Source: Chrysophaeum taylorii
Lineage: Eukaryota; Sar; Pelagophyceae; Pelagomonadales; Pelagomonadaceae
Assembly (NCBI GenBank): GCA_029834535.1
Contig: JAQMWT010000309.1
Location: 558,001 to 622,000, forward strand
Direction of reading: 5' to 3'
Length of the DNA: 64,000 nt
The notes under the pieces were generated by a model, which did not search any database, was not told the DNA's origin, and saw nothing but the letters and a program-made list of their open reading frames with translations. Shown piece after piece: positions 55,043-64,000 of this stretch (positions are counted from its first letter, which is position 1; every line of letters starts with the position of its first letter). A program made the translations under genes and the position numbers.

Positions 55043-58000
55043 ATGTTGTGTTTCCCTTGCTGCAGACGCGCTCGGACGTCGAAGGTTGTCATCAGGGCCC
55101 GGAACGCTCGCGAAGACATCGTCGAGGCCGTTCTCGCAGCCTCGCGCATGATCGCGACCGAGGGCCTCGGCGAGAACCAGCGCGCGCACGGCTTTTTGTT
55201 CATCATCGGCAACTCGGAAGAGCTCCTCGCTCCGGATCCCGACCTCACGTACGCGGAAACAGAATCCTCCGTTCACTCCAAGTATGGATTCTTCCCCAAG
55301 GACCTCGACCGCCGTGACAGTACCGAGATTCTTATCCAAGACTGCTGCCAGAGCGACGCCAAGAAGCGGGCCTTGCAAACGCTCTGCGGCCGCGACAACG
55401 CGATTGTCGTCGACGGCACCACGGGCCGGGTCTGCTGCGGGGGGTTCGCGAACCGCGATATCACGACACCCTACGGCACGGGCTCGCGCACCAGAGCGGC
55501 CTCGTCGATCGCTGTCAAGGCGAATTGCGTCACTATCAAAGCCTCGCAAGACATCTGCGGCACGCGTGCGAACCCGATTTTTTTGGACGCGCACTTCGAA
55601 GTGTTCCGAGGAAAGTATGATCCCGATAAAGTCCCTGTCGTCGTCGCGGAGACGCCGAGCGCGATGAGCGACGAAGCAACTCCTTGGTCCTTCGGGTCGT
55701 GTTTGCTTGCTATTCAGAGGCACGTCGTTGCGATCAAACGGCTCGAGGCGTCGCACCGATGCGCGCTGCGACCACATTTGCATAGAAAGTACGGCACGGA
55801 CGAGTACGCCAAAGTTCGTGCGAAGATTACCGAGTTTGAGGACCTGACTGACGATGAGACGGTGCGCTTCTACGTCGACGAACGCCGGGTGGAAGAATTC
55901 AGGGATTTGGAAACCGGTTTCGAGGAGTTTTGCCGGGGATTGCCGACGGTTTATCCAGTGGCGGCCGTACTTTCAGTTGAAAACGAGGCAATCGCCGACA
56001 CGCGCATCCCGCTTCTTATGAGAACGTTCAAAGAGCGCGATGTCGCCACTTATTTTCATCCCGAGCTGGAACTCGTCGAGTTTGTGAGGGGCGTGGGACC
56101 GCGGATTTTGATCTTCGTCGGGTGTCCGCTCGATGGTGTTCGATGCTTTGATGAAGAGTGGCGTCTTTGCTACTTTTGCTCGAGTGCGCAAGGGAGCGAC
56201 AACATGCTCGAGTTTGATCAGGACAATCTCGTCGAATTCGTGAGATCCGTGCAGCCAGAATGTGTGCTTCTCCTCGCACATAACTCAATCGAACTCGTCG
56301 CGAATTTGTCACCAGAGAGACTGGCCGAACCAATCCGTCTGATTGTGTGGAAAGGGAGGATGAACCGAAGATCAGCATCCAAATTTGTGGATACTTTTAT
56401 CCACAAGTTCCTTGCGAATTTCTCGGACGACGGGCTGGATTGTATTCAGTCGTCTTATCTTCGAGGCATGCAAAAGGTTACACTCGATCCTGGTACGAAG
56501 CCGTCGATCAAGTTGCTGCCTGACACTCAAGTGGTAACGGACCGCCTTGGGACGAGCGTGCCCGACGAAATACTTATTCGCCTCAAAGATCTCGATTTGC
56601 TCTCTTCGGAAGTCGCTACGGCAATAAGAGATACGTATGTTCCTCAGATAGTCGCCCTCTTGCGTGCTGATCGGGAAAAATTTCAACTTCCGTATACTGC
56701 GATGATACGAATTGCAGGCAGAATTGACGATAGTAATGTCAATAAGGTCAAAATACTTCTTGATGATCTTAAAGCATTGCGAGTCGATTTTGAATTCACG
56801 ACGTCTGGATCGATCGTGTATCATTGTGTTGTTTCCGACAACGTCGAAGACTTTCGAGGATGGGGGCAACAGGTCGCGGCAAATTTAGCAGAAAAGCAGA
56901 CCATCCGGATCGCTGAGTTGGCATTGACGGGTGTCATCGTGAAGACGGCTGATCTCCAATTTTTGAGAGACGAATTCCCCGCCGAGTGCGCCGAGGCGGT
57001 ACATAATTATCAACGCTCGGATGTTCTTGGCGAAAAGTTGCTTTCTTTATTATTGCAACCCACGCAGGATCTGACAATAGACGCGATAAATGACGTCGCT
57101 GCTCGATGTGAAGAGCAATTGAAAGCTACCACGCACGCAACAATGTTGGACGTCGGGCCCCAAAAAAATCGAGGGGACCAAACTTCTGAGTTTGGTTTCT
57201 CTTCGAATTTCGAGAACGACAAACCTGCGCAGCGCGAGGAAGGCGTTACCACGATCCTTGAGGCCGCGCACACCGAAGGTGTCGGGGAGAAGAAATCCGA
57301 TGCCTTTGCTCTCGCCGCCCGGCCGTCGTCTACCCAGCATGCGGCAGCCGAGGCCAAACGGAGGCACCAAGGCCAGATCGCGCGCGTGCAGCACGGACGA
57401 TGCGACCCTAAGCAGCGCGAGAAGGTTGAGCGAGTTAACGCTGCCGTCGACAGCGAGCTCGACATCATCACGACCATCTTGACGATTGGAAAGGCGATTC
57501 CCCTCGTCGGAGGGATATGCGGCGTGGCCAAGGAGATCCTAGAGGATGTGCGAAAAAACACGGACAAGGCGGATGACGTGGTACGGGCTGGTTGCCGCGT
57601 CCTCGACGTCCTCGAGTTTCTCCGACTCCTCCAACGTCGCGTCGACGAGTTATCCCCTGAACCAACGCCCGAGGTGCGCGAGGCGATGAAAGACATCACG
57701 CAGTTGCTCGAGGAATTCAAGACGGCCGTTCAAAAATTCGGCAAGCCCGGCTTCTTTAAACGATTTTGGCGGCTGCGCAAGTACGCGGGGGCGCTCTCGC
57801 GCCTCGACGAGAAGATGCGCAACAAGCTCGATTTTCTGACGAAGGCGTACGGCGTTGCGAGAGATGCGCGCGTCGAGGGCTTGCTGCGAGCTATTCCGTA
57901 CAAGCTTGAGGAGGCGCTCAAGAAGTATGTCGACGAGCGCCACGACAACGACCAAATGGCGCTCGAGGACGCGGCCGAGGAGGGCGACGTCGACCCAGAG

Positions 58001-61000
58001 GAGACTAGGGCGGCGCTCGTGGCGCTGCACCAAAAGGTAGACGAGCTCGAGAAGAAGAGAGACTATTCGCTGCTGCTGCTGCTGCTCGAGGAACAAAATG
58101 CCCTAATTAAGCGCGCCTTGGAGCGTTCGGACAACGCTGCTATTCGAAACGCTGGCAGGAAGGTGTCCGACGTGATGTCCGAAACAAGTTTACTTCCGGT
58201 GTACGAAAAATGCCTCGTCTTGCAGCTGCTCGCAGCGAGCTTTGCTGACGACGCCAAGAGGATCCAAGAAATCCTAGACGTGGCCCCAACTATCATCCAC
58301 GAGCAGTTATCTGACGTCGGCGGTGCCTGTTGGGCGCTTTCGGCGCTTCACGTCTCCGCGTTGTGCGGCAACTTAGCGGCCATCATGAAGCTACAAAACA
58401 TGAACGGCGACTTTACCATCGCCGACGCGCACAAGCGGACGCCGCTACATCACGCCGCTGCTCGCGGGCACGTCGAAGTGGTATCGTACTTGCTTAGGCA
58501 CTGCGGCGTCGACGTCGATGCCAAGGACCGCAACGACCGGACACCATTGATGTTCGCTAGCTACAAAGGAAAAATCGACGTCGTCGAACGACTTGTGAAT
58601 GTGGGTAAAGCCGATGTGAACGTCGGGTTTGATGACGACGACGGCATCCAAACTGCCATCGACCTGGCTCTATGTCGAGGTCACGAGGATGTCGTAAATT
58701 TCCTGGACGAGCGCGGGGCACGTCGACTCTCAGCACCAATTCCGACGAATACTAGCGGCGACCCGCTGTTTTCGCAGACTCTTCATTTTCGGGAATCTCT
58801 GTTCGTCGGCGGTGTGGGTCGGACCCGAAGCGTGCGCCTGCAAAGTTCGAACGTCGACGCGAGATCACGGAGTGGCGAGGATTTTGATGTTCTCGTCGAT
58901 GATCAACCCGTGGCAGGAGAAAAGCATGGCGTCGCCGCTGATAGTCTCCCGGGCAAGCACGAGGCAGCCGAACACAACGACGTTGATCCAGCGAAACCCA
59001 CCAAAAAACTCCAGCGTTCTCTCGGCAACTTCGACGTGGGTCATCTCGTACGCTTGCCCACGACGGGTCGCCCCGTGTTTGAAGTCGTCGACTTCATCGC
59101 GAAAGGGGCTCACGGCGAAGTCTACGTCGTTCGATCGACGACTCGAGCTTCTTCGGCGATGTTTGCGATGAAACGCGTCCGCTCGGACGATAATCTGAAG
59201 AAGAAGAAGGATTTGATCGAGAAGGAGCTTCGACTCTGTCGCGAGGCTTTGCTTATGGCCGAGCTCGGTACGCACCCTCATATCGTTTGGCTGCACTACT
59301 GCATCGTGTCGAGCAATAATGCAGAATTCTTGATTTTTATGACGCTCGTCGACGCGGCCCGCGACTTGGAACGGCTCGTCTCGAGCGGCGATCTTTACGA
59401 CGGCGACACGCGTGCCGTGCGCGAAAATATCTTCTCAATACTTCAGCAGCTGGCCTCGGCGCTTTCGTTTTGTCACTCGCGAGGCGTGCTGCATCAAGAT
59501 GTCAAGCTCGAAAACGTTTTGGTCGACACCGCGGGCTGTGCGTATCTGGGGGGTTTTGGCCTCGCGCGCCGCGGCGATGGGATCGACGCCAACCTCCGTG
59601 CTCCTCTCGAGGGTTACTCGCCGGGATACGAGTCTCCCGAAATTGTCGCGGCCCTCGGCACATCGTCCGGGCGAGCTCGAGTTTCTCCGGCCGAGACTGA
59701 CGTCTGGGCGTTTGGAGTCGTCGCGCTGCACTTGTACCACGCTGGCGAAGTGTTTTTCCCGGAGATGCAGACGGCGCTCGAAAGTATCGTCGCGCTGGCG
59801 CCACCAGACACTAGTTGGGGGGGGCTCGAAGTCGACGCTTGGTTGAGGAAGCACTCGCTCTCCGTTCAGGAGGAGAACGCGCCGCCCGACGGCGCGGCGC
59901 TTTTTAAAATGTCGCCGAACAACCTCCACGATGCTTTACCGTGGCTTCCAAAGAAAAAAGATCGTTTGCGGTTGCGTCGAATGCTCTTGGCGCCACCTCC
60001 CGCAATGAGCATTCTTCTTCGTCAGTGTTTCGCCGCGGACGTGACCGAAAGACCAACGTGCGGCGCGGCGCTGCTCGAAAAAATGGTGCAAGTTCCTGGC
60101 ACGTCGATGACTCACAATCCTGTGGAGGATGTCGCAGAGACGCTGCTCAATATTGGGCGAGCGGTGGTCGAGCTAAACGATGTCGACCTCGCGCGCAGGG
60201 CACTCGAGGCTTCCGTCGCGAATGGCGGCGACGCGGCAGAGTGTTATGCGTTGATAGCGAACGCGCAATTGCGTGCCGGCAGGTGCGAGGAAGCATTGGT
60301 CGCGTGCGATCGGGCTTTGAGCAACGACGAAGAACACGGCGGTGCGCTTTTCGTCAAGGCGGAGGCAACGTATCGCCGCGATTCTTCGGATTATTCGCTT
60401 TTTCCCGATGTCATACGCCGTGCGCGGTTGTATGATGCGAAGCTCTTCCCCGCGCCGCGCGCGGTAGAAGGGGCCATCGCCTACCTCGAGGCCGCCAAAG
60501 ACGAGGCGGACTCGGCGCGCGACCCCGTTACCAACGACCGCGTCTCCGTATCTGCGTGCGTGCGAGACCTCCCCCCGAACATTGCTCATCGTCGCGACGT
60601 GAAGACCGAATTTGGGGGGTCGTTTCCGCCCGCGACGACGACGACGGTGGACTATTCGAGCGTTCGAGGGGCCCTCGGTGATGTCGTGCACGCTGGCGAA
60701 GCCGTCGACGCGGCGATGCGCACGGGTCGCGTTGTGATGGAGGGGGACACGGGCTCGGGCAAAGGCTGGTTTCTGCGCGCATTCGTGGTTGCGCTTTGTA
60801 AGAAGCAACTCGATGATAACGGATCGGGCGAATCGACGAGCACGTCGGAAGTCCTGCTCCCTTTGACAATCCCTCTTTCGAGCATCGAGAATCCAAACGT
60901 CGACTGGCTCGGCGGCGCAATCAATAGTGTTCGAGATGGCGGCGATGCCCTGCGAGCAGCACGGATCCACCAACGCCTTGTTCTTTGTCTCGACGGCCTC

Positions 61001-64000
61001 GACGAAGTTTCGCCCGATGCTCGACCTTCGCTCGTCGAGAAAATTGTCGTCGAGTACGCTCGAGGTTGTGCGTTCACTATCATCACCTCGCGTCCGGCGG
61101 CCGGCAACGTCGGCGATCTCGCTCCGCATGGTTTCGCGTTTCTCAGCATTGCGCAAGTCGATCGCAGGCGCGTCGAGGATCTCGGAATTCCTTCCGACGT
61201 CGCGAGCCTCGTGGAGACTCCTCTCTCGCTCCGGCTCGCGTCGCTTGCGTTGTCTTCTTCTTCTGGAGAATTGCAGAGGCCAGGTATTCTTCGAGATCGA
61301 TCCGATTTGTTCCGCATCGCGACCGAGGAGTTCGTGGCTCGCGCCGTTGCGCCGACGCAGCAGGACGGAACCCTCGCGGTCGCGCGTGATGTTCTCCGAG
61401 AGTGCGGCAGTTCGAAAGTGCGCGAGGTCTTCGAGCGGATTGCACTCGCGGCGCACGAAGATCGACGAACTTTGATTCAGCGTAGCGACCTCCAGGGCCT
61501 AGCATCCCACCGCTTGGCTGCGGCGGTCTGGAGCTTAGCGCGGTCCGGGGTGTTGCCTCCGTTCGTGCCGCGCGGGAGCAACTCGGTTGCTTTCTTCCAC
61601 TTGACGTTCCAGGAAAATTATGTCGCCCGTATGCTAGGATCTGACGCTTTGCTTGTCGAAGACGCGTTCGACCTCGGCGACCCGTGGTGGCAATCACCAG
61701 CGCTTTTTGCGTTTCAGCTCGCGGAGCCGCGTGGACGCGAGCGCGCGCTCGACGCTCTTTCTCGGAAGATCCCCGCATTAGTGGCTGGTGACAGGGTTGA
61801 AGTGTGTTCGGACGAATTTCGGTTTTATTTCCCGCGCACCGTCGCCTCTTTGGACGAGTTCGTTTCGAGTCGCAAAATTGGTGTCAAAGAGTATTCGTGG
61901 TCCGAAACACAAGTAGTCTCCGTGGAACAAACGCGGCGAGATGTTGAAGAAGTTGCAGCGCTCGCACGGCGCGCGGCCGCAGAGGGCGAAACTGCGCTCG
62001 TGGCAGGACTTTTAGATCGTGGTGCCGACCTCATAACGCCAGTCGATTCCACGACAAAAGATAGCGCGCTGCATGCGGCCGCTCGGTCTGGCAGGGCCGA
62101 GTGTGCCCGATTTTTGCTTCGCGCAGGCGCTTCGTTGTATTCTCGGAATAAGTTTGGTTCCAACCCGCGTGATCTCGGTTTTTCTCGCGCGGTCGAAGTT
62201 CAACGAAGAGCCGATATGGTTCGGATTTTTGATCCACCTCAATGTGACAAAGACCTCGACGCTCATCCTATCGTTCCGTATGTGCTTGAATGGGTCGATA
62301 GTGACGAGGTATCTGAAAAAATTCCTCGAGAGTGGAGCGACGAGCTGCGTTTATACGCGTTCGCGCAAGCGTGTCATCGAAGGCAAGAGCGCGCCGCGAC
62401 GACACTCGCGTCATTCGTCGACGTGAATGGTCGCTTCCCTCGCGGGGTTAGTGTGCCGCTCCATTTCGCTGTCGTGAATTCCTGCACTAATGCCGTGAGC
62501 GTGCTACTCGAACGAGGAGCCCGATTGCACGACATTGTGGGAGAGTCTGCGTTGGCACTCGCTTCGAGATTAAATCGCGTCGATGCACTTTCGGTATTGC
62601 TTCAAGAAAAAAATTTCGTCGAGAAAAGTTTCAAGCTGCAACCTGGTGCACAGTTTGGTTCTAGACACTGGGTCCGGGCGTTGATGGAGAAGGGCGCCGA
62701 TGCACTTTCAGTATTGCTTCACAAAAATCAGTTTGACGAGGTAAGTTTTGTGCTGCTACCTGCTGCGCAGTTTGGTTTTATAGAGTGTGTCCGGGTGTTG
62801 ATCAAGAAGGGCGCCGACGTCGATAAAGCCACGACCAACAATGGCTTGACCCCGCTATACATGGCGTCTCAGAACGGCCACGTCGACTGCGTCCGGGTGT
62901 TGATCGATAAGGGTGCCGACGTCGACAAAGCATGGGCCGACGATGGCACGACCCCGCTTTTCGCGGCGTCTCGGAACGGCCACGTCGACTGCGTCCGGGT
63001 GTTGATCGAGAAGGGTGCCGACATCGACAAAGCGAAGACCGACAATGGCGCGACCCCGCTTTGCGCGGCGTCTCTGAACGGCCACGTCGACTGCATCCGG
63101 GTGTTGATCGAGAAGGGCGCCGACGTCGACAAAGCGACGACCGACGATGGCGCGACCCCGCTTTGCGCGGCGTCTCTGAACGGCCACGTCGACTGCATCC
63201 GGGTGTTGATCGAGAAGGGCGCCGACGTCGACAAAGCGACGACCGACACTGGCGTGACCCCGCTATACATGGCGTCTCAGAACGGCCACGTCGACTGCGT
63301 CCGGGTGTTGATCGAGAAGGGCGCCGACGTCGATAAAGCACGGACCGACGATGGCGTGACCCCGCTATACATGGCGTCTCAGAACGGCCACGTCGACTGC
63401 GTCCGGGTGTTGATCGAGAATGGCGCCGACGTCGATAAAGCACGGACCGACCATGGCACGACCCCACTTTACGTTGCGTCTGAGAGTAACCAAGTCGAGT
63501 GCGTCCGGGTGTTGATCGAGAATGACGCCGACGTCAACAAAGCACAGACCGATATTGGCGCGACCCCACTTTACGTTGCGTCTGAGAGTAACCACGTCGA
63601 CTGCGTCCGGGTGTTGATCGAGAATGGCGCCGACGTCGATAAAGCACGGACCGACGATAGCACGACCCCGCTACACGTTGCATCTCTGAAAGGCCACGTC
63701 GACTGCATCCGGTTGTTGATCGAGAAGGGTGCCGACGTCGACAAAGCGACGACCGACACTGGCGTGACCCCGCTTTTCGCGACGTCTCAGAACGGCCACG
63801 TCGACTGCGTCCGGGTGTTGATCGAGAATGGCGCCGACGTCGATAAAGCACGGACCGACCATGGCACGACCCCGCTATACATGGCGTCTCTGAACGGCCA
63901 CGTCGACTGCGTCCGGGTGTTGATCGAGAATGGCGCCGACGTCGATAAAGCACGGACCGACGATGGCACGACCCCGCTACACGTTGCGTCTGAGAAGAAC
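55043..64000 (+). CDS. Giant STAND/NLR-like protein: DisA-like, HeLo/MLKL-like bundle, ankyrin, (pseudo)kinase, TPR, NACHT, ankyrin; partial
   Basis: One frame of 2,986 codons without a stop, cut by the right edge. Domains from the ATG at 55043: residues ~20-180 DisA_N-like (DNAIVVDGTTGR from 118; GTGSRTRAAS 145-154); ~330-470 unassigned, faintly caspase/CHAT-like; 805-945 four-helix bundle like the MLKL/HeLo cell-death modules (AGCRVLDVLEFLRLLQRRVD; LLEEFKTAVQKFGKPGFFKR; LDEKMRNKLDFL); a coiled coil ~990; ankyrin 1094-1226; kinase 1335-1685 with Gly loop GAHGEV (from 1355), Lys1377, HQD (Asp1486) but GFG for DFG at 1504; TPR ~1697-1785; NACHT with Walker A GDTGSGKG (1901-1908), Walker B LCLDGLDEV (Asp1984) and FFHLTFQENYVARM (~2186); ankyrin 2318-2400 and 2579-2986. 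The C-terminal repeats probably recognise ligand, NACHT switches and the bundle executes. The start is uncertain (possible acceptor at 55065). Confidence 0.88.
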   Translation, partial: MLCFPCCRRARTSKVVIRARNAREDIVEAVLAASRMIATEGLGENQRAHGFLFIIGNSEELLAPDPDLTYAETESSVHSKYGFFPKDLDRRDSTEILIQDCCQSDAKKRALQTLCGRDNAIVVDGTTGRVCCGGFANRDITTPYGTGSRTRAASSIAVKANCVTIKASQDICGTRANPIFLDAHFEVFRGKYDPDKVPVVVAETPSAMSDEATPWSFGSCLLAIQRHVVAIKRLEASHRCALRPHLHRKYGTDEYAKVRAKITEFEDLTDDETVRFYVDERRVEEFRDLETGFEEFCRGLPTVYPVAAVLSVENEAIADTRIPLLMRTFKERDVATYFHPELELVEFVRGVGPRILIFVGCPLDGVRCFDEEWRLCYFCSSAQGSDNMLEFDQDNLVEFVRSVQPECVLLLAHNSIELVANLSPERLAEPIRLIVWKGRMNRRSASKFVDTFIHKFLANFSDDGLDCIQSSYLRGMQKVTLDPGTKPSIKLLPDTQVVTDRLGTSVPDEILIRLKDLDLLSSEVATAIRDTYVPQIVALLRADREKFQLPYTAMIRIAGRIDDSNVNKVKILLDDLKALRVDFEFTTSGSIVYHCVVSDNVEDFRGWGQQVAANLAEKQTIRIAELALTGVIVKTADLQFLRDEFPAECAEAVHNYQRSDVLGEKLLSLLLQPTQDLTIDAINDVAARCEEQLKATTHATMLDVGPQKNRGDQTSEFGFSSNFENDKPAQREEGVTTILEAAHTEGVGEKKSDAFALAARPSSTQHAAAEAKRRHQGQIARVQHGRCDPKQREKVERVNAAVDSELDIITTILTIGKAIPLVGGICGVAKEILEDVRKNTDKADDVVRAGCRVLDVLEFLRLLQRRVDELSPEPTPEVREAMKDITQLLEEFKTAVQKFGKPGFFKRFWRLRKYAGALSRLDEKMRNKLDFLTKAYGVARDARVEGLLRAIPYKLEEALKKYVDERHDNDQMALEDAAEEGDVDPEETRAALVALHQKVDELEKKRDYSLLLLLLEEQNALIKRALERSDNAAIRNAGRKVSDVMSETSLLPVYEKCLVLQLLAASFADDAKRIQEILDVAPTIIHEQLSDVGGACWALSALHVSALCGNLAAIMKLQNMNGDFTIADAHKRTPLHHAAARGHVEVVSYLLRHCGVDVDAKDRNDRTPLMFASYKGKIDVVERLVNVGKADVNVGFDDDDGIQTAIDLALCRGHEDVVNFLDERGARRLSAPIPTNTSGDPLFSQTLHFRESLFVGGVGRTRSVRLQSSNVDARSRSGEDFDVLVDDQPVAGEKHGVAADSLPGKHEAAEHNDVDPAKPTKKLQRSLGNFDVGHLVRLPTTGRPVFEVVDFIAKGAHGEVYVVRSTTRASSAMFAMKRVRSDDNLKKKKDLIEKELRLCREALLMAELGTHPHIVWLHYCIVSSNNAEFLIFMTLVDAARDLERLVSSGDLYDGDTRAVRENIFSILQQLASALSFCHSRGVLHQDVKLENVLVDTAGCAYLGGFGLARRGDGIDANLRAPLEGYSPGYESPEIVAALGTSSGRARVSPAETDVWAFGVVALHLYHAGEVFFPEMQTALESIVALAPPDTSWGGLEVDAWLRKHSLSVQEENAPPDGAALFKMSPNNLHDALPWLPKKKDRLRLRRMLLAPPPAMSILLRQCFAADVTERPTCGAALLEKMVQVPGTSMTHNPVEDVAETLLNIGRAVVELNDVDLARRALEASVANGGDAAECYALIANAQLRAGRCEEALVACDRALSNDEEHGGALFVKAEATYRRDSSDYSLFPDVIRRARLYDAKLFPAPRAVEGAIAYLEAAKDEADSARDPVTNDRVSVSACVRDLPPNIAHRRDVKTEFGGSFPPATTTTVDYSSVRGALGDVVHAGEAVDAAMRTGRVVMEGDTGSGKGWFLRAFVVALCKKQLDDNGSGESTSTSEVLLPLTIPLSSIENPNVDWLGGAINSVRDGGDALRAARIHQRLVLCLDGLDEVSPDARPSLVEKIVVEYARGCAFTIITSRPAAGNVGDLAPHGFAFLSIAQVDRRRVEDLGIPSDVASLVETPLSLRLASLALSSSSGELQRPGILRDRSDLFRIATEEFVARAVAPTQQDGTLAVARDVLRECGSSKVREVFERIALAAHEDRRTLIQRSDLQGLASHRLAAAVWSLARSGVLPPFVPRGSNSVAFFHLTFQENYVARMLGSDALLVEDAFDLGDPWWQSPALFAFQLAEPRGRERALDALSRKIPALVAGDRVEVCSDEFRFYFPRTVASLDEFVSSRKIGVKEYSWSETQVVSVEQTRRDVEEVAALARRAAAEGETALVAGLLDRGADLITPVDSTTKDSALHAAARSGRAECARFLLRAGASLYSRNKFGSNPRDLGFSRAVEVQRRADMVRIFDPPQCDKDLDAHPIVPYVLEWVDSDEVSEKIPREWSDELRLYAFAQACHRRQERAATTLASFVDVNGRFPRGVSVPLHFAVVNSCTNAVSVLLERGARLHDIVGESALALASRLNRVDALSVLLQEKNFVEKSFKLQPGAQFGSRHWVRALMEKGADALSVLLHKNQFDEVSFVLLPAAQFGFIECVRVLIKKGADVDKATTNNGLTPLYMASQNGHVDCVRVLIDKGADVDKAWADDGTTPLFAASRNGHVDCVRVLIEKGADIDKAKTDNGATPLCAASLNGHVDCIRVLIEKGADVDKATTDDGATPLCAASLNGHVDCIRVLIEKGADVDKATTDTGVTPLYMASQNGHVDCVRVLIEKGADVDKARTDDGVTPLYMASQNGHVDCVRVLIENGADVDKARTDHGTTPLYVASESNQVECVRVLIENDADVNKAQTDIGATPLYVASESNHVDCVRVLIENGADVDKARTDDSTTPLHVASLKGHVDCIRLLIEKGADVDKATTDTGVTPLFATSQNGHVDCVRVLIENGADVDKARTDHGTTPLYMASLNGHVDCVRVLIENGADVDKARTDDGTTPLHVASEKN
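62774..64000 (+). repeat. 102-bp tandem ankyrin-coding repeat array
   Basis: Twelve full units of exactly 102 bp (starts 62774, 62876, 62978 and so on), each coding a 34-residue ankyrin unit of the type NGHVDCVRVLIEKGADVDKA + RTDDGVTPLYMASQ. Units differ at few positions, mostly in the loop after GADVDKA and at TPL(Y/F/C/H). The array continues past the window. Confidence 0.95.

Follow-up and report, generated by a model that had tools for sequence, protein, structure and literature searches.

NLR-type immune receptors have been described thoroughly in plants, animals, fungi, and bacteria and, to our knowledge, much less so in photosynthetic stramenopiles. According to Dyrka et al. (2014, PMC4986451), fungal NLRs combine HeLo or HeLo-like, PNP_UDP, PKinase, and other heads with NACHT or NB-ARC domains and with ankyrin, WD40, or TPR repeats. 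Among brown algae, NB-ARC-TPR and ROCO-LRR proteins are described as candidate immune receptors (PMC11378527).

The stretch of DNA analyzed here (hereafter, the window) is 64,000 nucleotides long and corresponds to positions 558001–622000 of contig C309 in the 70.8 Mb, 697-contig genome of Chrysophaeum taylorii, a marine, colony-forming member of the Pelagophyceae (Ochrophyta), and thus the stramenopile type of host surmised in the preliminary description. The genome paper reports an assembly of 71 Mbp in 702 contigs and describes the alga as colonial, with bacterial flora, and its main text contains no occurrence of the terms NACHT, NLR, ankyrin, or immun (PMC10366177). Toward the end of the window lies a single open frame, which encodes, in order, a DAC/DisA-like domain, a region that we call X, a HeLo/MLKL_N-like bundle, ankyrin repeats, a kinase domain, TPR-like repeats, a NACHT domain, and a long ankyrin array.

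This protein resembles the fungal NLRs in its tripartite STAND plan with swapped N-terminal effectors, and in the high internal identity of its repeats with variable concave ankyrin sites (PMC4986451), but differs from them in that HeLo, ankyrins, kinase, and TPR all precede one NACHT, in its DAC-like domain, and in its ochrophyte host. A homologue search recovered no fungal relative of the whole protein, only two fungal ankyrin proteins covering 6–9% of the query. With the brown-algal proteins it shares the standing of an ochrophyte candidate immune receptor with varied repeats, whereas those proteins carry NB-ARC or ROC-COR domains with repeats varied by exon shuffling, and the window has one long frame with a NACHT domain (PMC11378527). 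The arrangement had been taken to suggest an undescribed immune or allorecognition system, which needs qualifying: HeLo-NACHT combinations, ankyrin NLRs, and kinase heads are all known in fungi (PMC4986451). A literature search at the level of titles and abstracts found no description of a DAC-like head on an NLR-type protein, nor of a C. taylorii repertoire of this kind. The interest of the locus lies in its host group and its DAC-like head, and less in the HeLo-NACHT-ankyrin plan, which is common to fungi.

Modules of the open frame

The frame runs for 3,347 codons from the ATG at 55043 (3,406 from stop to stop) and ends at a TAA after C309:623083, so that the uninterrupted run of at least 2,986 codons noted earlier continues past the window end. 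At the local base composition, 3,347 stop-free codons would arise by chance with p ~1.4e-53, and the GC content of the third codon position exceeds that of the second in all 17 blocks of the frame. Pfam was run on the 2,986 residues inside the window, and then on cut-out pieces (Table 1). The kinase and ankyrin calls are strong, the NACHT call lies at its cut-off, and the DAC call is made by way of a bridging paralogue; the Pfam matches, together with the paralogues in the same genome, uphold an NLR-like architecture with an ankyrin sensor. The internal ankyrin block, the TPR-like repeats, and the GFG that replaces DFG in the kinase had gone unmentioned in the preliminary description.

Table 1. 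Features of the open frame, in window coordinates
Feature	Residues	Position	Strand	Basis or remark
Entire frame from the ATG to the window end		55043..64000	+	continues to C309:623083
DAC/DisA-like domain	24-190	55112..55612	+	Pfam E 0.12 alone; paralogue C418
Region X	225-700	55715..57142	+	relatives in C324, C398, P0002/P0003
Linker	701-785	57143..57397	+	C324 46.7%, E 4.7e-12; P0002 by eye
HeLo/MLKL_N-like helical bundle	786-1000	57398..58042	+	MLKL_N 28.9 bits, RPW8 E 0.0034
Internal ankyrin block	1100-1250	58340..58792	+	Pfam and paralogue alignment
Protein kinase domain	1346-1677	59078..60073	+	HQD, GFG; predicted pseudokinase
TPR-like repeats	1703-1764	60149..60334	+	TPR_16 30.2 bits, under cut-off 32.7
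NACHT and helical part	1897-2021 (Pfam), helical part to 2260	60731..61822	+	P-loop GDTGSGKG, Walker B, HLTFQE
C-terminal ankyrin array	from ~2306	61958..64000	+	Pfam ankyrin families

In the case of the DAC-like head, the DAC family is absent from the Pfam result on the whole 2,986 residues and is the sole family listed for the cut-out piece. The bridge is paralogue C418, which aligns with the window domain at 41% identity (E 4.5e-25) and matches Pfam DAC at 31.0–31.3 bits (cut-off 27). The motifs DGA and RHR are the catalytic motifs of DAC domains; the window has D-N-A and R-T-R in their places and, by eye, RHR occurs in one of nine alignment rows (C418) and DGA in three (P0001, C396, and C418), with C418 retaining both. 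The DisA-like label thus holds as homology to DAC, through C418 only, and fails for the catalytic motifs, which are degenerate in the window copy; judging by these residues, cyclase activity is probably absent. Without C418, the window-family profile had a score of 16.3 with a CdaA, which lies within the range of 60 column shuffles (maximum 21.4) run for this profile; with C418 included, the score was 23.95. The window domain and one CdaA gave E 0.017 in a two-sequence BLASTP, and a nine-member DAC-like profile listed DAC structures (E 0.34 to 1.4) only after two matches to ribosomal proteins, which we take for chance. Compared with the bacterial diadenylate cyclases CdaA and DisA, the domain shares a homologous region (via C418) with the D-x-A and R-x-R places, but has DNA and RTR there and is joined to NLR parts. 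All four proteins found in a homologue search with the DAC-like domain (743 candidates) come from C. taylorii, the search with the DAC-X half returned the same four, and scans of viral and prokaryote genome contigs with two short peptide patterns each gave no close relatives. Since the homologue searches detect only proteins that have 5-residue words in common with the query and are of comparable length, the absence of relatives elsewhere is unproven. One CdaA-type diadenylate cyclase is present in the assembly at C301:22900-24500 (1.6 kb); as a bona fide algal DAC it was set aside for its 38.5% GC, its bacterial-looking neighbor frame, and the bacterial flora mentioned in the genome paper (PMC10366177), and is probably bacterial DNA within the algal assembly.

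Residues 211–787 match no Pfam family at E values up to 10. A guess from residues 345–470 that X is a CHAT or caspase domain was dropped, as none of nine own-genome CHAT matches falls on X and no Pfam family matches it. Relatives of X occur together with PNP_UDP-like domains (C324 and C398) and with LRRs (P0002 and P0003) in the same protein, and the linker behind it is related to one in C324 and to another in P0002, a DAC-X-LRR protein. We note that the linker contains a TEGVG-type motif, like the TEGLGE at the start of the DAC-like domain (E 0.097 against C454b), and is perhaps a remnant of a second DAC-like copy.

The HeLo/MLKL-like bundle proposed earlier passes the MLKL_N cut-off of 27 bits only as a cut-out piece: on the whole window protein the match covers residues 825–950 at 24.4 bits (E 2.2e-5). 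RPW8, also matched, is presumably another helical bundle of the HeLo/MLKL_N kind. The match on the cut-out piece provides a putative N-terminal effector of the type that NLRs carry. A profile of five HeLo domains, three of which match MLKL_N at E 0.1, found no MLKL structure among PDB chains at E values up to 10, and AlphaFold gave a mean pLDDT of 46.1 with three sequences (46 for the bundle model) and 33.4 with five; as both models are too poor, we make no claim as to fold. Further MLKL_N matches, some of them stronger than that in the window (to 67 bits), lie at C309:44388, 112598, 145220, and 150447 and on C565, C8, and C25, in frames of 162 to 1,379 residues.

The kinase domain (Pkinase E 6.8e-27, residues 1347–1677) keeps the Lys, HQD, and SPE places, with GFG replacing a DFG that is, by eye, intact in three of nine core copies (C534, C324, and P0005). 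The kinase noted at the outset is hence real as a domain and, from these motifs, probably a pseudokinase. TPR_16 behind it reaches E 3.2e-4 on the whole window protein. MLKL itself consists of a 4-helix bundle and a pseudokinase, whose role is that of a latch or docking part, and the window protein resembles it in having a putative N-terminal MLKL_N-type bundle and a kinase domain without the DFG Asp, but differs in the ankyrins between bundle and kinase, the kept catalytic-loop Asp, and the attached NACHT and ankyrins. The bundle is not followed immediately by an MLKL/RIPK-group pseudokinase, as ankyrins intervene and the best 60 of 1,606 PDB kinases are nearly all CDKs, with no MLKL among them; the window protein may work like MLKL, but is not an MLKL.

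The NACHT domain was matched by profile search at its Pfam cut-off of 26.7 bits, with 22.1 bits on the whole window protein (E 1.5e-4, below), 26.3 bits on the cut-out piece (E 7.6e-6, just under, and the sole family there), and 26.1 bits in the genome search, or 29.2 with frame neighbors, rated over. That of paralogue C324, which aligns throughout with the window, reaches 32 bits, over the cut-off. The NACHT domain that defines NACHT-type STAND proteins is therefore present, borderline on the window sequence alone. Of the motifs described for it, Walker B (LVLCLDGLDE) and the FQE motif (HLTFQE) are there as stated, and Walker A as GxxxxGK with its final Ser/Thr missing, replaced by Gly. By eye, seven of nine core copies have this GKG P-loop (C489 has GKS and P0008 GKT), and as six further copies share the change, it is not decay of the window copy.

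Five ankyrin families match the window protein at E 7e-137 to 8e-70 (Pfam), and the C-terminal array supplies the superstructure-forming repeats typical of NLRs. Near-identical 34-residue repeats begin at 62849 (residue 2603) and extend past the window end as far as residue 3316; 20 scored repeats (the scan rule skipped one at ~2909) have a mean identity of 76% in protein and 86% in DNA, and reach at least 95% DNA identity in 11 of 190 pairs. Nine repeat positions show pN > pS, five of them within a six-position contact set on the concave face that we assume from ankyrin design practice (hypergeometric p 0.0024). As this set was mapped after the variable positions had been seen, its p-values serve as a guide only. 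The arrays of C27 (4/7 variable positions in the set, p 0.010) and C324 (3/5, p 0.029) agree with the window, that of C534x does not (3/10, p 0.23), and that of C538 has no position with pN > pS. Over the whole window array pN/pS is 0.75, so there is no net excess of replacement changes; the variation is concentrated on the presumed binding face. Fungal NLR ankyrins likewise have high internal identity, with positive selection on the same face (PMC4986451).

Paralogues, module exchange, and selection

A search for paralogues, recommended at the outset for related algal genomes, returned a repertoire of shuffled module combinations in the alga's own genome. Counted as matches, not genes, and as lower bounds, there are NACHT domains at at least 16 places (15 rated over the cut-off, three only with frame neighbors), NPHP3_N at at least 14, at least 21 DAC-like matches on 12 contigs (several being fragments or stop-bearing), at least 32 HeLo and at least 21 MLKL_N matches (11 of the latter over the cut-off, one only with neighbors), and at least 14 rows for the window-type kinase and at least 10 for X. 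The HeLo-ankyrin-kinase-TPR-NACHT-ankyrin core recurs in the same order in C27 and C73, with part of the bundle in C538, split over two frames in C534, without the bundle in C324, partial and distant in C489, and also in the public models P0005–P0008. Other pairings, inferred for C44, C359, C28, C84, and C398 from equal frame lengths and neighboring coordinates, are MLKL_N with NPHP3_N (C44 and twice in C359, MLKL_N being over the cut-off in one of the three), PNP_UDP_1 with NPHP3_N (C28), PNP_UDP_1 with X (C398), and, in C84, CHAT at 33 bits, over its cut-off, with NACHT at 26.4 bits, slightly below its own. The DAC-like domain shares a frame with NPHP3_N and WD40 in C165, C396, and twice in C454 (there as WD-type motifs), occurs with NPHP3_N pieces in C528 and C599, and precedes X and LRRs in P0002 and P0003.

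Several of these loci merit a remark of their own. The single frames at C84:132850-134289 (CHAT and NACHT) and C28:9103-10842 (PNP_UDP and NPHP3_N) have classic NLR plans. C25 and C521, with equal MLKL_N and CHAT scores at nearly equal coordinates, may be duplicate haplotypes. The C165 DAC-NACHT-WD40 frame contains a second P-loop (GQGRVGKTS) and VWDYGG after its WD40 repeats, at residues ~1090–1298, a region that we take to resemble a ROCO-type GTPase; the best 25 of 33 Pfam rows include no ROCO-type family.

The window DAC-like domain is 63–76% identical to those of C396, C165, C454a, and C454b, whereas the NACHT domains of the same four align with that of the window at only E 0.05 to 4. Close kinship of the one module without detectable kinship of the other indicates that parts have been shuffled, as in fungal NLRs. 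Outside the genome, a core homologue search (scoring the 8,000 candidates that share most words) found 44 proteins. Four of them, P0005–P0008, are from C. taylorii; the remaining 40 carry ankyrin or kinase families and cover 5–21% of the query, and they include NACHT or NPHP3_N ankyrin proteins such as P0010 from a beetle and P0040 and P0044 from fungi.

Comparing the window copy with its paralogues, dN/dS is 0.24–0.54 in 15 of 15 module comparisons, covering the DAC-like domain (0.35–0.45), HeLo (0.54), the internal ankyrins (0.33–0.49), kinase (0.25–0.30), TPR (0.30–0.31), and NACHT (0.24–0.32). The modules compared are under purifying selection, and the odd motifs therefore sit in a protein kept by selection.

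Function and alternative readings

Taking the modules, their order and shuffling, the purifying selection on those compared, and the variable ankyrin surface into account, all of them features read from sequence, we give a probability of roughly 55% to the window protein being an NLR-like, NACHT-type STAND sensor of non-self with a HeLo executioner. The steps that we infer run from ligand binding and assembly to membrane killing, with a kinase latch and nucleotide binding by the DAC-like domain. At rest, the C-terminal ankyrin array would keep the NACHT domain closed. A ligand, which might come from a virus, from a bacterium, or from a foreign strain of this alga, would bind the variable concave ankyrin face, upon which NACHT monomers would assemble, and the clustered HeLo/MLKL-like bundles would insert in membranes, so that the cell would be killed or disabled. 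The kinase between HeLo and NACHT would serve as a latch or docking part and not as an enzyme, and the DAC-like domain with X would form an exchangeable N-terminal module that may bind nucleotide and tune or read the response. A further proposal, which we regard as a long shot, is that a DAC-derived nucleotide domain is the signaling or sensing head of a eukaryotic NLR system, in which assembly would cluster the DAC-like domains and make or read a cyclic dinucleotide, C418-like proteins being the enzyme and the degenerate NACHT-borne copies the receptors.

Against a simple reading of this kind, the kinase DFG and the P-loop Ser/Thr are lost, the DAC motifs are degenerate, and the tail appears out of frame. 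C27, C324, C534x, C538, and C73 share a C-terminal tail; the frame studied here closes with another, short one, and by eye the first residues of a different reading frame just behind it resemble the shared tail, which appears to be out of frame in the window copy, either by a read error or in reality. Directly behind the frame, at C309:623084-630000, lie several repeats, along with fragments resembling a PIF1/Helitron-type mobile helicase element. It is conceivable, although we consider it unlikely, that the frame is a gene with decayed enzymatic parts, a degenerating or regulatory copy that serves as a decoy or helper or is a pseudogene in the making: this would account for the GFG, GKG, and R-T-R replacements, for the tail seemingly displaced after the last repeat and followed by repeat-rich DNA, and for the lack, in the searched collection, of a protein marked as the window's own, but sits poorly with the 3,347 stop-free codons, with the low dN/dS across the six modules compared, and with a P-loop change common to six further copies.

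Doubtful, too, is that the NLR-like scaffold has a non-immune role, in stress signaling, colony formation, or control of resident bacteria. NACHT and ankyrin proteins also serve other roles, and near-identical ankyrin repeats that vary, together with swapping of effector-type domains, are instead the pattern of recognition receptors. The colonial habit and the bacterial flora, as described in the genome paper, would fit such a role (PMC10366177).

Finally, we consider it very improbable that two or more neighboring genes (DAC-X and HeLo-ankyrin-kinase-TPR-NACHT-ankyrin) have been fused by assembly or a missed splice, as, despite a Met just before HeLo in the second-half paralogues C27, C534, and P0005 and a DAC-X half without HeLo in C575, C454 (twice), and C600 (which leaves the DAC-X-HeLo order at one of five DAC-X loci), the junction shows neither stop nor Met nor intergenic DNA, the public model P0006 extends from the linker into the ankyrins, and C324 joins a 28.5% identical X relative and a relative of the linker to the same ankyrin-kinase-TPR-NACHT-ankyrin core. 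With C324 included, a join of this kind is present at two loci, each of which has another head. The head of C324 is PNP_UDP_1-like (20.7 bits, under the cut-off; 25.6, rated over, in another search), and LRRs follow its X. Ahead of its PNP_UDP-like domain, C324 also matches the MBF2 family at 28.7 bits, against a cut-off of 25.

Read as a repertoire of NLR-like sensors, the pelagophyte HeLo, PNP, CHAT, and DAC-like heads on NACHT with WD40, LRR, or ankyrin sensors would represent the same kit assembled again, in a bloom-forming group, and offer one genome in which algal cell death and non-self recognition become testable.
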